From contig CAILJQ010000119.1 in NCBI GenBank assembly GCA_903834625.1, positions 1 through 42,065 of the forward strand: DNA of 42,065 bases. The letters run 5' to 3'. Of this stretch, positions 1 through 33,495 are shown one piece after another; position 1 is the stretch's first letter; each line of letters starts with the position of its first letter. The stretch is from an uncultured Bacteroidota bacterium. GTDB taxonomy: Bacteria > Bacteroidota > Bacteroidia > UKL13-3. A program made the translations under genes and the position numbers. Below the pieces are notes generated by a model. The model was given only the letters and a program-made list of their open reading frames with translations. It was not told the origin of the DNA and searched no databases.

Positions 1-338
1 ACATAAACTTTTTAGCCATTATACCAGGAAAGGAATATAGCAGTGAACAAGTTATTAGGTTCAGAAATAAATACCAACTTAAGTCCTTAAAGTTTTTGTT
101 CGACCCGAAATATCAATTATGCGAGGCACTGGGCGCTACCATTACCCCTGAGGTTTTTGTTGTAACTAGAAACGGGCAAGGAGTTTATAGTGGCAGAATA
201 GACAATTGGGCCTATGAGTTAAGTAAAAAAAGAAAGGTAATAACTGAACACGATTTGTTGAATGTTTTGCAAAATATTCAACAAAATAAGCCATTAAAAC
301 CTTATCAAACCAAAGCCGTAGGATGTTATATCAGATAA
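1..338 (+). CDS. Redoxin (thioredoxin-fold) protein, C-terminal part, cut by window edge
   Basis: The reading frame is open from base 3 to the stop at 338, so this is the C-terminal ~111 residues of a longer protein whose start and any CxxC active site lie outside the window. The visible part has the thioredoxin-fold cis-Pro signature TPEVFVV followed by a strand and GRID, a pattern typical of AhpC/TSA-type redoxin proteins of Bacteroidota and Planctomycetota. The TTG at 96 is internal and is not a start. The last 16 bases overlap the next gene, so the two are probably translationally coupled. Known of the family: such redoxins are often found beside, or fused to, the cytochrome c/copper monooxygenase protein that follows. 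Inference: it supplies or relays reducing equivalents in the periplasm. Confidence 0.75.
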   Translation, partial: INFLAIIPGKEYSSEQVIRFRNKYQLKSLKFLFDPKYQLCEALGATITPEVFVVTRNGQGVYSGRIDNWAYELSKKRKVITEHDLLNVLQNIQQNKPLKPYQTKAVGCYIR

Positions 339-1690
339 GTAAATTTGCTCTAGTTTTCTGTTTGATTTGGGGTTGCGGAAATTCACCTAAAAACACATAC
401 CCAAAGGAGGGCGATCCGGTGTTATTTGCAGAACACATTGCCCCTATCATTCATCAAACCTGTGTAAGTTGTCATCACCCTGACGGTCCTGCGCCATTTA
501 CCTTGGTAAGCTTTCAAGACATTGCTCCCAAAGGCAAATTAATTGCACATGTAACAGCCAATCGAATTATGCCACCTTGGCCAGCCGACCCAACATACAG
601 CCATTTTGCCAATGAAACCTATTTGAATGATTCCCAAATACAGCTTATACAAAGATGGGTTGAAGGAGGTTGTTTACCAGGGGACACAGCTTCTTTGGTT
701 CAGACCGAAACCTTAAGAAAACAATGGGACCTAGGCAAGCCAGATGTAATAGTAAAGCTTCCCAAACCAATTATTGTACCTGGCAACAACAGTGATTTGT
801 TTATGGTGGTAAAGATACCTTTTGAATTACCTAAAGACACCTTTGTAAAAGCCATTGAATTTGTGCCAGGCAAAAAAAGATTGGTACACCACATGAATGC
901 ACATATCATTCAATTCAACCCAGCTAAGAAAAAAGATTTAAAGGGTGGGGCAATGTATGTTAACCAAGACCAAAGTAAGAGTCAGACCATACATAAGGAA
1001 TTGGGCTTATTAAACGACGATGGCACCTATGCACCCATGACGCCAAGTGTTTGCAATTACCTGCCAGGAGCACAGTTTAGGTTTTACCCCAAAGAGATTG
1101 GAGGTTATAAAATGGGAACCAAAAATGCTTTTTATTTAAACGATCTACATTACGGTCCAAGTGCCATAGAAGAACAAGACTCCTCTTATTTTAAGATTTA
1201 TTATGCAGCCAAAGCCCCTAAGCGACCCGTTTCTGAATTTCAAATAGGAACTTTAGGGTTAGTGCCCGTAACACCTCAGTTAATGGTTAAACCCGGAGAG
1301 GTAAAAACTTTTAATATACGCTTTCCAGTGCCTCAAGATATTTCTATTTTAACCTTGGTGCCACACATGCATTTAATTGGAAAGAAATATTTGGCTTATG
1401 CCATAAAGCCCAGTGGCGATACCATTAGGTTGATACGTATAAACAATTGGGATTTTAGGTGGCAGTATTTTTACCAACCGCCAACTTTGCTAAAAATTCC
1501 TAGAGGCTCGGTAATTTATGTAGAAGGGGTTTATGACAATACGGCCGAAAACCCAAATAATCCGTTTTATCCGCCACGTGAAATAGGCGAAAGAGAGGGT
1601 AGTATGCGCACTACCGATGAAATGTTTCAGCTCATCATTACCTATTTGCCATATCAAAAAGGCGATGAGTTGATTAAAAATGGGGAATGA
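323..1690 (+). CDS. Lipoprotein with cytochrome c domain fused to PHM-like type II copper monooxygenase
   Basis: A 455-residue protein with a short hydrophobic leader ending in a lipobox-like LIWGC (Cys18), so probably a periplasm-facing lipoprotein. A single haem c site CVSCH lies at 47-51, with MPPW at 83-86 as a likely axial-Met region. The C-terminal two thirds resembles copper type II ascorbate-dependent monooxygenases (peptidylglycine hydroxylase/dopamine hydroxylase fold). The copper ligands expected from that family are visible: HHM at 189-191, LHYG with His276, HMH at 348-350 and the Met ligand in DEM (434). Both copper sites therefore look intact. The gene overlaps the redoxin gene by 16 bp. 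Inference: a periplasmic oxygenase fed electrons through its own haem. The substrate is unknown. The start is the ATG at 323, which gives the lipoprotein leader. Confidence 0.8.
   Translation: MLYQISKFALVFCLIWGCGNSPKNTYPKEGDPVLFAEHIAPIIHQTCVSCHHPDGPAPFTLVSFQDIAPKGKLIAHVTANRIMPPWPADPTYSHFANETYLNDSQIQLIQRWVEGGCLPGDTASLVQTETLRKQWDLGKPDVIVKLPKPIIVPGNNSDLFMVVKIPFELPKDTFVKAIEFVPGKKRLVHHMNAHIIQFNPAKKKDLKGGAMYVNQDQSKSQTIHKELGLLNDDGTYAPMTPSVCNYLPGAQFRFYPKEIGGYKMGTKNAFYLNDLHYGPSAIEEQDSSYFKIYYAAKAPKRPVSEFQIGTLGLVPVTPQLMVKPGEVKTFNIRFPVPQDISILTLVPHMHLIGKKYLAYAIKPSGDTIRLIRINNWDFRWQYFYQPPTLLKIPRGSVIYVEGVYDNTAENPNNPFYPPREIGEREGSMRTTDEMFQLIITYLPYQKGDELIKNGE
697..710 (+). repeat. Dispersed 14-bp motif, exact copy
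   Basis: GGTTCAGACCGAAA, inside the cytochrome/monooxygenase gene, read there as part of LVQTET. Confidence 0.75.
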
Positions 1691-3782: not shown

Positions 3783-4241
3783 TTAATTGGCATCTGCAAT
3801 AACCTTGTCTAAAATGCCTAAAAATGTGGTGGCATCATGGTATCCTGGGTCAATAAATAGAGATTTCTTTTTGGGATGAATAAAATACGTTGTAGGAAAA
3901 CCTGTATTTTCTCCTCTGGTTAACTGACCATAAAAATCGCGGGCAGAAAAGGTTTGTCCGTCTATATCGTATGTTTTTTCTCTTTGTTCAGGATTAAATT
4001 TTATGACGATAAAGTGCTTGTTGAGTTTTTTAATCACCTCTGGATTTGCATAGGTATCACGATCCATTTTTTTGCACCATCCACACCAATCTGTATAGGC
4101 GTCTACCAATATAATTTTACCCTCTTTTACAGCTATTGGATAACCTTCATTCCATTGGTACCACTTTAATTCTGCCTCTTGAGGGGATTTAAAGGAGGTG
4201 AGTAAAACAAAAGAAAACAAAAGAAGAATACTATTTTTCAT
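3783..4241 (-). CDS. Secreted thioredoxin-like protein (thioredoxin_7/DUF255 type)
   Basis: A 152-residue protein with an N-terminal signal peptide (roughly residues 1-18, hydrophobic ILLLFSFVLLTSF) and a thioredoxin fold. The redox site is WCGWC (Cys53, Cys56) followed by KKMD, and the cis-Pro is in GFPTTYF. The CGWC spacing and the TYANPEV segment place it with the DsbD-gamma/DUF255-like periplasmic thioredoxins common in Bacteroidota. It likely reduces or exchanges disulfides in the cell envelope. It is the last gene of a minus-strand run (gap of 42 nt from the hydrolase). The partner protein is not evident here. Confidence 0.85.
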   Translation of the reverse strand: MKNSILLLFSFVLLTSFKSPQEAELKWYQWNEGYPIAVKEGKIILVDAYTDWCGWCKKMDRDTYANPEVIKKLNKHFIVIKFNPEQREKTYDIDGQTFSARDFYGQLTRGENTGFPTTYFIHPKKKSLFIDPGYHDATTFLGILDKVIADAN

Positions 4242-28949: not shown

Positions 28950-31145
28950 TTAGTTTTCTGAAACCAATTGAACTTTAGTTAGGGCTGAAAGCGCATCTGT
29001 TAACGCTAAATAAGCAGGCCAATCTTCCACCTTGTATTCAAATCCGGTTTGAACCAAGGTAAGCTCCCAATGCAATATTCTGCCTTGCATGCTTGCTGTT
29101 GAAACCAAATTCCCCAATTTATTTTCAAAGGAAGTATTGAGTTGATTGAGATCGCTCACCGACATATTATATGGAACTTCAATATCTAAGACCATCTTTA
29201 ACTCGCGGTTGTAATCATTATAGAAAGCTTGTTTGCGTTCTAACCTGTTGCGCATTTGGTTTATTTCTGGCAATGAACCAAGCATGGCACCTACATTTAA
29301 AATGTACCTATTATCTGCATGGGCAAGCATATCGCCAATTTTATATTCTGAATAAAATTTCAATTCACGTTTTTCAGGATCTCCACCATTGCTAAATGGG
29401 ATAATGGTATCAACTGAAAATACCAAGTATTCCTCTTTTAGGCTTTTCTTCCATCTTTCCTTGCGCTCCTTCTCACGATTTTGAAGGTATGCCAACTCTT
29501 TGCGTTCTTCTTCTTTTTTAATAAAATCAAGCGATGTTTTAGGTGCATATAATTCTCTACGCGTGAAAAACAGCAAAGGATATTTTTTATTATGATATTT
29601 TGGAATGCGCACTTGTGTGCTATAGTCATCTAACAGTTGCTTGTAATTATTTCCAAAATCTTCTAAACCATCTGCATTATATCCCCTCATAATGTTTGTT
29701 TGTTTCATTAAAAAGGTGTCTGGAAAGCTGAGTAATTTCGCTTCAATTTGAATGGTGGTAGAATTGCTGGCGGCAGAAGACGACTCCATTTTTATCTTCT
29801 CTCCCACTCTTTTTTTACGGGTATCTTTCCTAGAAAAAGCCAATACATCCATGCCTTCGTAATCTTCGGTAAACATATCTGGATGTGTATATGGACCAAA
29901 CTCTGTGATATAATAAGTGCGCTCTGGTAAAATCACTTCCAGACCTACATTAAAATCGCGTTCAAACAAAATATTTTTTAAGCCGCCCGTATATTTAGAA
30001 GGCAATAAAACAAAGCGATAAGGGATATTTCTTTTTTTCAAATGCACCACCATCATGCGCAGAAATTCTGTACCTACCTGAGAGGTTTTTTGGTTCAGGG
30101 CAATATCTGGCTTATACATGCGATCTCTGCAGAAGTAGTAATATTTAACAAAGTACTCCTCGGCTGGAAGTTTATATCCATATTCTTTTAAGAATTCGTA
30201 ATAATATTTGCTTGAAACTCCCCTATAAGGTTTGCGTGTATATTGCCTATAATACTTGGCTATTTCAGCCTCACTCAGTTCTCTAATAATAAAACCATTT
30301 TTAGTATTAAATGCTTTTCTCTTGTATATTTTGGAATCAATGGCTGTAAACCGAACAATAGGTTCAGACAGGTACCTAACAGCATTTACCTCAACCCTAC
30401 TTTTTTCTATCAAAGAATCTGTGAGTTCATAATAATATCCCCCTTTGATTCTTTTCATTTTCATTTTTGCAGCACCATTTAATGATTGGGCAATAATTTG
30501 GGTGCGTCTTTTTCCAACTGCATCTAACCTAAAATATCTTGTTGGATAAATGGCTGTGAGATAAGAGTCATAGTCTTGGTGGCGTGTGAGCGTGGCCACA
30601 TCAAGTATATCTCCAGGCTCTAGTCCAGTGAGTGGAATACGGTATTCCTGCGAAGCAAAAATGGCATTATAACCAGGCTTGTTGAATTTCAGTTCTTGCT
30701 TAAATGCATTCTTCAGATTCACTTTTTCTACCCTACCATCTGGCTTGATGATTTTTACATCTAAAAAATTATTACTTGAAAACTCTAAATAAGAGAAGGT
30801 CTCTACAGCCGCCAAATCATTCAACTTCAAACGAATTCGGGTAAAGCCATAGGGCGACTTCAATCGGTAATCATTGGAGTGACGTCTGTATAAAATAATC
30901 ACCGATTCATCTTTCCATTTTTCTGGATAGGTAACAGAGCTAGCAAAAGGATCTTTATCTGCACTCTCCCATTTTTTCAGTGCCTTTCTTACCTTATTAT
31001 AAATTTTAGAATCGGGATCGAAATCTTGTGCGTGAATAGAACTGGTTAAAAATTGGAAGAGAAATACCAAAAGGAATAACTTTGGCAGTATACGTTGAAC
31101 CTGTAAACGAAACAGGTAAACTAAAAATATTGTATAGCGTTGCAT
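28950..31145 (-). CDS. DUF3857 protein with degenerate transglutaminase domain
   Basis: A 731-residue exported protein: signal peptide with a long N-region (about 1-40, ends IHAQ), a DUF3857-like beta domain (about 65-260), a transglutaminase-like core (about 325-440), and a long C-terminal beta region. In the core, the site aligned with the catalytic Cys reads SQVGTEFLRMM (no Cys, about 355-365), the His site reads NVGLEVI and the Asp site YITEFGP. All three catalytic residues therefore seem lost. The neighbouring upstream gene encodes an intact relative. Known of the family: DUF3857 proteins often carry transglutaminase-like folds of unknown role. Inference: a structural or binding partner. 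A 12/14 motif copy lies at 29042-29055. Confidence 0.8.
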   Translation of the reverse strand: MQRYTIFLVYLFRLQVQRILPKLFLLVFLFQFLTSSIHAQDFDPDSKIYNKVRKALKKWESADKDPFASSVTYPEKWKDESVIILYRRHSNDYRLKSPYGFTRIRLKLNDLAAVETFSYLEFSSNNFLDVKIIKPDGRVEKVNLKNAFKQELKFNKPGYNAIFASQEYRIPLTGLEPGDILDVATLTRHQDYDSYLTAIYPTRYFRLDAVGKRRTQIIAQSLNGAAKMKMKRIKGGYYYELTDSLIEKSRVEVNAVRYLSEPIVRFTAIDSKIYKRKAFNTKNGFIIRELSEAEIAKYYRQYTRKPYRGVSSKYYYEFLKEYGYKLPAEEYFVKYYYFCRDRMYKPDIALNQKTSQVGTEFLRMMVVHLKKRNIPYRFVLLPSKYTGGLKNILFERDFNVGLEVILPERTYYITEFGPYTHPDMFTEDYEGMDVLAFSRKDTRKKRVGEKIKMESSSAASNSTTIQIEAKLLSFPDTFLMKQTNIMRGYNADGLEDFGNNYKQLLDDYSTQVRIPKYHNKKYPLLFFTRRELYAPKTSLDFIKKEEERKELAYLQNREKERKERWKKSLKEEYLVFSVDTIIPFSNGGDPEKRELKFYSEYKIGDMLAHADNRYILNVGAMLGSLPEINQMRNRLERKQAFYNDYNRELKMVLDIEVPYNMSVSDLNQLNTSFENKLGNLVSTASMQGRILHWELTLVQTGFEYKVEDWPAYLALTDALSALTKVQLVSEN

Positions 31146-31175
31146 GAATTTTTGACTTTAATGGGTTTGCCCTTA

Positions 31176-33338
31176 TTACATTTGAAATTGTAGGTAATGG
31201 TTATAACTGCTTTGCAATTGATACAACATATTGTTCCAAGCCAAAAAATTCGCTTTGGTAATCACCCCCTTTTTCACCTGTAATTTCTTCACATATCTCA
31301 CAATGTTTCCTTCACGTGTGTATGAAACCAATAAATAAAACTCCGGATTATTTATTTCAATTCTTGGAGGCATAAATGCTACTTGATAACCCGAGGGAAT
31401 TTGAATCATATAATTGATATCCATGTTTATTTTATGACTAAACTCTAGGTCGAATATCCGAGCAGTATCAACCTTTTTATTCTCTAATTCATAACTATAA
31501 TCTGGATTCACAAATACACTATTGCCCTTGCGTAAAACATGATTTTTTAACGTTAATTTATAATCGAGTTTAAAGTCGGCCGTACGATTAGTGATATCAC
31601 TTGCCTTAATACTATCAGGAAGTATATAATGGTAACTTTCTCTTAAATATCTGTAGTATGCTTTTTCCTTTTCTTCACCTGGCAAATTATTTACGGCCCA
31701 AATCAATTGTGTTTTTGGTTCGCCCTTTAACACTTCAGTAACCAACCCCACCAATTTATCTTGTTCTATTCTAAAGCCAGCAGTTCTGCTTACTAAATTG
31801 CGCTCTACAGGTAAGTCGGGCACTGTATCAATTAAAAAAGTACTTCCATTGGCAATAAGTACAGGCTTGCCTTGAATACGATGCGCATAATCCTCTATGC
31901 CAATATAATCTTCTGTGCCATCAAGAAAATATGTTTTGCCATCTAAAAATACCGTACATATCATGTGGTTATCTACAATAACAGAAGGGATGCGGTAATC
32001 ATAAGGTATATGTTTTGTTCCGATCCAAGTAATATGTGCATCTATACCTACTGATGTAAGCATATTCTTGAGCAAGTTAGCCATGCCTTTACAATCTCCA
32101 TAGCGGTTGGCTAAAACCTCCTGACAAGGTTCTGGTTTAAAGGCAGCCAATCCATCCTCAAAAGCAACATATCTAATATTGTCTTGAACCCAATAAAAGA
32201 CTTTCTCCATCTTTTCCTTTTTGGTTTTGCATCCAACTGTAATTTCTCTAGCTTTTTTACCTGTAATGGTTGTATCGTTTTTGGTTAAGGAAACAATTTC
32301 ATTGTACCATTGGTATAAATCATCAAGGTTTGCTACCAATGGCTTTTTATAGTTCCCTTGTTGTCTTCTTCGCTTTACTTCTACGGGGTCATTCTTACTC
32401 ACCTTTTTGGTATTTTCTTTCTTCACCTTCTTTTCCTTCATGGCATACGGCTTAGCTAATTTTTCATCTAAGTTTTTGCAGAGAATAATGATATGAGGTA
32501 AGTTATAAGCAGGACCAACTGCATTGGTTTCTTTTTTATAAGCATTCAGGTCTTTGATGGTATAGGTAACTATTTTTATTTTATCTGGCTTAACCTTCGA
32601 CTTTTCCTTTTTAGGCGCTTTGCCTTTTCCATTTACCTCCACCAAATCATCCATCACAACTTTTTTGCTCGATTTCGTGATGGCATATCCATCAAAATTC
32701 ATTTCAAGAATATCTACCGTTAACCAAGAAGGAATTTCAATGCTTATTACTTTTTCTTTTTGCGGGTATCCCTCATGAAAGTATACCGAACCTAAATATT
32801 TTACGTCCTTTATTTTTTTGCGGTATCTCAAATGAATGGGCGTTCCAACAGTTGTAGCATGGTTTTCCCAATAGGCCATTTTAGCATCTGAATAAAAAAT
32901 ACCATCGCTGCTATAATCTGTAATAAGATATAATGGGTCGTAATACTTATTGGTTTTTAAATCGCCAACTTTTGTCTTAAAAGCCTCGAACGTAACCATG
33001 TCGTTGAACATTTCCGTAAAATACACGGGTTTGTTATCTGAAAGGCATCGGTATTTTTCGTATACATTTTGAAAGGCTTTCACGGGCATTCCTTTCGACA
33101 TTTCGGCTGGGAAATAACCAAAACTGTAAATGCTCCTGCTTACTTCTGCCATTTGAGAAACCTCATCGGGATATTTCTTTTTGGAAGTTAAGGCAAGCTT
33201 TACATCTTCTTGGGTAACATTACCCTCAGATCTGTATATCTTATAATTACTCCCGTATTTAGGACGATCATCTAAGTTGATCCAACAGGAGCTGAGCATC
33301 AATGATACTCCAAGCAGGGTAAATATTCTTGATTTCAA
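31176..33338 (-). CDS. DUF3857/transglutaminase-like lipoprotein, intact triad
   Basis: About 720 residues. No ATG precedes the leader: the frame offers TTG at 33356 and at 33338. I chose 33338 because it gives a canonical lipoprotein leader beginning MKSRIF and ending MLSSC. Order: DUF3857 N-terminal beta domain, a Lys-rich linker with charged repeats (KEKK, KKEN), then a transglutaminase-like core with Cys416 in GDCKGMA, His458 in DNHMIC and Asp473 in FLDGTEDY (422, 464 and 479 from the upstream TTG). It is the first gene of the three-gene operon with the degenerate homologue (30 nt downstream) and the barrel protein. The activity could be protease, cross-linking or peptidoglycan-related and is unknown. 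Confidence 0.82.
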   Translation of the reverse strand: MKSRIFTLLGVSLMLSSCWINLDDRPKYGSNYKIYRSEGNVTQEDVKLALTSKKKYPDEVSQMAEVSRSIYSFGYFPAEMSKGMPVKAFQNVYEKYRCLSDNKPVYFTEMFNDMVTFEAFKTKVGDLKTNKYYDPLYLITDYSSDGIFYSDAKMAYWENHATTVGTPIHLRYRKKIKDVKYLGSVYFHEGYPQKEKVISIEIPSWLTVDILEMNFDGYAITKSSKKVVMDDLVEVNGKGKAPKKEKSKVKPDKIKIVTYTIKDLNAYKKETNAVGPAYNLPHIIILCKNLDEKLAKPYAMKEKKVKKENTKKVSKNDPVEVKRRRQQGNYKKPLVANLDDLYQWYNEIVSLTKNDTTITGKKAREITVGCKTKKEKMEKVFYWVQDNIRYVAFEDGLAAFKPEPCQEVLANRYGDCKGMANLLKNMLTSVGIDAHITWIGTKHIPYDYRIPSVIVDNHMICTVFLDGKTYFLDGTEDYIGIEDYAHRIQGKPVLIANGSTFLIDTVPDLPVERNLVSRTAGFRIEQDKLVGLVTEVLKGEPKTQLIWAVNNLPGEEKEKAYYRYLRESYHYILPDSIKASDITNRTADFKLDYKLTLKNHVLRKGNSVFVNPDYSYELENKKVDTARIFDLEFSHKINMDINYMIQIPSGYQVAFMPPRIEINNPEFYLLVSYTREGNIVRYVKKLQVKKGVITKANFLAWNNMLYQLQSSYNHYLQFQM

Positions 33339-33495
33339 TTCTTTAAAATTTATCAAAATATCAGAAAATTATTTTACAAGAAAAAGACTTTTCTCAGTTT
33401 ACATTAAAATAACATGGAGACAATTCTCCCAATTTGGACTAGAAAAGCTTAATTTTCCTAGTCTTTCACCTTCAATTTGAAGCCATTAAGGTTTC

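Follow-up and report, generated by a model that had tools for sequence, protein, structure and literature searches.

PHM and DBM, known mainly from animals, serve as models of electron sharing between two distant coppers. The bacterial protein described here, a predicted lipoprotein, shares with PHM (PF01082 and PF03712) the two-domain fold, the extracytoplasmic location and six copper ligands that follow one another in the same order, within matching motifs (HH, HY, HxH, DEM). It differs from PHM in carrying a haem c domain and a lipid anchor, in its low identity (~15-18%), and in the position of Arg240, part of the peptide carboxylate clamp of PHM, which is occupied by Asn, Val, Ala and other residues across the family. 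DBM is the closest solved structure by both fold and sequence, and also has an extra N-terminal domain before its copper core; that domain is of the DOMON type rather than a c-type cytochrome, and DBM is fed by ascorbate and has no redoxin partner, unlike the system in the window. Cellobiose dehydrogenase, whose cytochrome domain passes electrons to copper LPMOs, is an analogy only: a haem domain likewise feeds an extracellular copper monooxygenase, but the folds are unrelated and the haem is of type b and carried on a separate flavoenzyme. For the redoxin encoded alongside, the entries 2ywi, 2cvb and 3u5r have both the fold and the same C-terminal GC-I ending, and we know of no link between them and a copper oxygenase. 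ResA, a cytochrome c maturation reductase, matches in the thioredoxin core alone, the match not extending to the C-terminal Cys tail.

Each of the components (copper fold, haem motif, redoxin fold) is already known, and Pfam recognises paralogues of the protein. In the openly accessible literature, we found no paper on a bacterial haem- or redoxin-coupled PHM and no published description of haem, PHM fold and redoxin in combination.

Locus organisation and gene features

The window, the whole 42,065-bp stretch of DNA that was analysed, corresponds to one entire contig, G000:C119, from a draft genome of 3.38 Mb (97% complete). The closest named relatives are Bacteroidota metagenome assemblies, several of them derived from lakes or ponds judging by their names. 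The features at the start of the window are as follows.

1..124, no strand: assembly junction, where 124 bp exactly match the end of contig G000:C249
3..338, plus strand: redoxin gene, 3' part (111 aa), with a thioredoxin fold and a C-terminal Gly-Cys; truncated at the contig start
323..338, plus strand: 16-bp overlap of the redoxin and oxygenase genes, the start ATG lying within the GGA-TGT codons of the invariant Gly-Cys
323..1690, plus strand: lipoprotein of 455 aa, predicted N-terminal c-type haem domain followed by a PHM/DBM-type dicopper double domain
323..376, plus strand: signal peptide, predicted from the sequence, ending at lipobox Cys18 (invariant in 11/11 diverse near orthologues)
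461..475, plus strand: haem c attachment motif C47-V-S-C50-H51 (CVSCH), conserved in relatives
569..580, plus strand: M83-P-P-W86, with M83 invariant and a candidate distal haem ligand
887..892, plus strand: CuH-type ligands H189 and H190 (HHM), aligned with VHHM of DBM and VHH of PHM; conserved
1148..1150, plus strand: third CuH-type ligand H276 (LHYG), aligned with HY of DBM and PHM; conserved
1364..1372, plus strand: CuM-type ligands H348 and H350 (HMH), aligned with HTH of DBM and PHM; conserved
1622..1624, plus strand: CuM-type ligand M434 (TTDEM), the counterpart of PHM M314 in TSSDEM; conserved

The start at position 323 is the first start codon in frame, with no other Met before Cys18, and is credible because only this start yields a signal peptide. 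The 16-bp overlap reported in an earlier note on this DNA was borne out, and the part of the redoxin that lies within the window is its C-terminal part. A genome search traced the N-terminal part, which carries CPLC, to the end of C249 (L203), and the joined gene encodes an exported protein of ~183 aa with the sequence SPECPLC; the contig break inside the gene is probably an assembler break. The gene upstream of the redoxin on C249, which has an esterase-like sequence, lies on the opposite strand, so the operon contains the redoxin and the oxygenase only. Farther along the window and outside this operon are genes for a Disulph_isomer protein (bacilliredoxin-type, PF06491; 1743-2162, minus strand) and a DsbH-like thioredoxin (3783-4241, minus strand). 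Two large neighbouring ORFs lie at 28950-33356 on the minus strand; one has a transglutaminase core with DUF3858, and the other, of 731 aa, had no Pfam match.

Fold, copper ligands and substrate residues

Pfam scores for the lipoprotein fell below the cut-offs (PF03712, 19.4 bits vs 23; cytochrome c models, 12.7 vs 27) and PF01082 gave no match, while paralogue L060 passes the cut-offs for both PF03712 and PF01082. The structure prediction that the earlier note had called for was made with AlphaFold2 from 36 family sequences (pLDDT 89.2), and the model best matched DBM and PHM among PDB structures: the first 26 matches were all DBM or PHM (E = 4.9e-13 to 2.7e-8), with DBM 4zel (E = 4.9e-13) and PHM structures at the top. 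Whether the His and Met residues come together as two copper sites, the refuting condition set in the earlier note, was thereby addressed indirectly, through this fold match and the alignment of each ligand with PHM and DBM. The Foldseek TM-scores were moderate (0.33-0.47 by query, 0.35-0.65 by target), and thus the arrangement of the two domains may differ from that in DBM and PHM. A profile of 36 relatives matched dopamine beta-hydroxylase at 1e-8, the alignment pairing the HH, H and HxH ligands of the two, and a profile of the longer paralogues with a type IX secretion (T9SS) tail matched DBM at 8e-10 and PHM at 3e-6, again with the His ligands aligned. The profile of the C-terminal domain alone had no PDB match, so M434 was placed through the PHM motif instead; in PHM chain 5wm0, GGTSSDEM begins at residue 307, which gives M314, in the same [TS][TS]DEM motif as M434.

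We then considered conservation. In the first set of relatives, the haem motif was kept in 41/41 and the full copper ligand set in 40/41. The full set of six copper ligands (H189, H190, H276; H348, H350, M434) is retained by 131 of 132 distinct relatives, and CxxCH together with M83 is found in all 131 that cover that part. The haem c site (CVSCH, C47 to H51) and the copper ligands (HHM, LHYG, HMH, Met434) are therefore as they had been described from the sequence, and their conservation across relatives indicates that the motifs are not due to chance. Trp376, Trp380 and, within the DEM motif, Glu433 are likewise invariant or nearly so. Alignment, model and conservation together strongly support the product of 323-1690 as a PHM-type dicopper domain joined to a c-type haem domain.

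In PHM, Arg240, Asn316 and Tyr318 form the clamp for the substrate carboxylate. The corresponding residues in the window protein are V346, Q436 and I438, and the clamp is absent. Across the family, position 346 is most commonly Asn, Val, Ala, Phe, Trp or Ile; these six commonest residues account for 123 of the 132 rows, and Arg is not among them. PHM-like peptide binding is thus unlikely, and peptidylglycine (a peptide with C-terminal glycine) is, from these residues, probably not the substrate.

Distribution and gene contexts of the family

Matches at 1e-30 were found in 150 of the 295 sampled genomes of the class to which the window belongs, and 17 of 198 genomes in a phylum sample also had a match. 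The viral contigs searched gave no match, and the plasmids searched gave none to the window protein and one weak actinomycete match to a T9SS paralogue. Broken gene copies (internal stops, short fragments) occur in genomes of the same genus (G017:C495 and G007:C2:78873-80545).

The family comprises at least three kinds. Kind A is the lipoprotein of the window type, often with the redoxin alongside; kind C is a ~520-aa form with a type IX secretion tail. Kind B (440-450 aa) is encoded in operons with a T9SS-tailed PhoX-like protein and a MauG-type di-haem peroxidase, and the slot before its PHM gene holds a Rieske protein in L054 (with the same cluster in L053 and L068), a redoxin in L197, and neither of these in L052, L067 and L198. 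One slot in the PhoX-MauG operons is thus taken by either of two redox carriers, a redoxin as in L197 or a Rieske protein as in L054. In a further group (L185, L186 and L188), the haem/PHM gene lies beside SusC/SusD-like genes and a gene for an FG-GAP/UnbV protein; a PAP2/vanadium-haloperoxidase-like protein is encoded in two of these three loci (L185 and L188), and a redoxin also in two of the three.

The redoxin and its pairing with the oxygenase gene

The AlphaFold2 model of the redoxin (pLDDT 94) had as its top PDB matches 3u5r, 2ywi and 2cvb, an uncharacterised thioredoxin-like group, followed by ResA. In the redoxin alignment (residue numbers of the L006 homologue), C58, the cis-Pro P128, G186 and C187 are invariant where covered, and Cys61, the second Cys of the CxxC, is replaced by Ser or Ala in 9 of 62 members. 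The protein thus has the features of the thioredoxin-like group, namely the fold, the first active-site Cys, the cis-Pro and the C-terminal Gly-Cys. Pfam assigns it to Redoxin/AhpC-TSA; sequence and alignment have SPECPLC where a peroxiredoxin would have the peroxidatic motif PxxxTxxC.

We surveyed co-occurrence and natural fusions, as had been suggested as a check. Of the near orthologues, 76 had sufficient sequence upstream, and the redoxin adjoins the oxygenase gene in 49 of these; it does so in 63 of all 132 relatives, across several paralogue classes. The exact 16-bp overlap recurs in 34 of these 63 pairs, down to ~46% oxygenase identity, and the start codon is formed from the Gly-Cys codons of the redoxin, being ATG (GG[ATG]Y) in 30 of the 34. 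One natural fusion was also found, a single ORF of 599 aa (L183:7256-9055, minus strand) that runs from redoxin through c-type haem domain to PHM-like copper domains, and whose redoxin part has CPMV, with a single active-site Cys, plus the C-terminal Gly-Cys. The redoxin is, however, not universal: its presence on the tree requires 17 to 19 changes (13 counting only well-supported branches), and it is missing next to the oxygenase gene in some clades whose haem and copper sites are intact. Genomes such as G055, G121 and G133 encode an intact lipoprotein, but no close redoxin was found in them, only generic redoxins at ~1e-20, and in G048 the close redoxin is encoded at a site separate from the lipoprotein. 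The redoxin is therefore a recurrent yet optional partner. A mirror-tree comparison of the redoxin with PHM gave r = 0.76 (maximum of 1000 permutations, 0.25), but was rejected as proof of interaction because the correlation falls to 0.25 among divergent pairs.

Proposed function and alternative readings

Given the sequence and the models, we read the locus, with a probability of roughly 0.6, as encoding a membrane-anchored periplasmic dicopper monooxygenase of the PHM type with its own haem c, and a redoxin that acts as an accessory thiol reductant. By analogy with PHM and DBM, O2 would bind at CuM (H348, H350, M434), the second electron would come from CuH (H189, H190, H276), and a substrate C-H bond would be hydroxylated; the N-terminal haem c, in place of ascorbate, would pass electrons directly to the coppers. 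We infer copper loading, the O2 chemistry and the direction of electron flow. The earlier note had seen a built-in electron supply in both the haem domain and the redoxin. For the haem this is reasonable because it is universal in the family, and universal haem together with universal copper ligands suggests that electrons enter through the haem domain. For the redoxin the role is putative, given its incomplete adjacency among near orthologues and its absence from some intact clades. The redoxin would be co-made with the oxygenase by translational coupling and may serve as an accessory periplasmic thiol reductant, with Cys58 and the C-terminal Cys187 as its essential thiols, most likely supplying the haem domain with electrons or keeping the redox centres of the protein reduced.

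The redoxin could instead be a maturation factor with a single client, either acting like ResA or TlpA to hold the CxxCH thiols of the apocytochrome in the reduced state for haem attachment or aiding copper loading, and we consider this possible, if less probable. Its fold neighbours (3u5r, 2ywi, 2cvb, then ResA) fit such a role, the client has haem thiols that need reduction, and the redoxin can be dispensed with in clades for which general maturation might be enough; the ResA-like fold and the frequent loss thus favour maturation. Loss of the second CxxC Cys in the members with Ser or Ala is unlike ResA-type reductases, however, a permanent fusion would be odd for a maturation factor, and in some operons a Rieske protein stands in for the redoxin. 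The fusion, the translational coupling and the Rieske exchange in kind B operons favour redox transfer, which we place slightly ahead of maturation. A third role, as a peroxide scavenger guarding the enzyme against H2O2 from uncoupled turnover, appears improbable. PHM-type enzymes can leak H2O2 and the Pfam assignment points the same way, but SPECPLC is not a peroxidatic motif, the invariant Cys is the first of the CxxC in the thioredoxin style, and the nearest folds are thioredoxin-like proteins and ResA, with the first peroxiredoxin far down the list.

The copper domain itself might not be a monooxygenase, having retained the PHM fold as an electron-transfer or copper-binding protein or as another oxidase. 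The replacement of the PHM substrate residue R240 and the di-haem peroxidases of MauG and DHOR type that neighbour paralogues in their operons are both consistent with this. Nevertheless, the three-His and two-His-Met sites are kept almost throughout, including the Met required for PHM catalysis, and an open His2Met site would be needless for mere electron transfer; we therefore regard this reading as unlikely.

Returning to the monooxygenase reading, a tentative extension, less probable than not, is that the proteins make up a large family of bacterial copper hydroxylases, periplasmic and self-contained. In these, the covalently joined haem c would replace ascorbate and be fed by a dedicated thiol redoxin (or, in sister operons, by a Rieske protein), and the substrate class would be other than peptides or catecholamines. 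If bacteria have a version that brings its own haem donor, the entry of electrons could be tested within one polypeptide and PHM/DBM chemistry would gain a tractable bacterial system; a role would also be assigned to proteins that about half of the sampled genomes of the class encode.

The sole relative of the 132 that does not keep all six copper ligands has lost four of them (L066:7512-9104, plus strand; H190A, H276E, H348N, M434E), with the haem motif and the secretion tail intact. This paralogue lies near a DHOR di-haem oxidoreductase gene and a Rieske-like gene, and represents a natural copper-free control.
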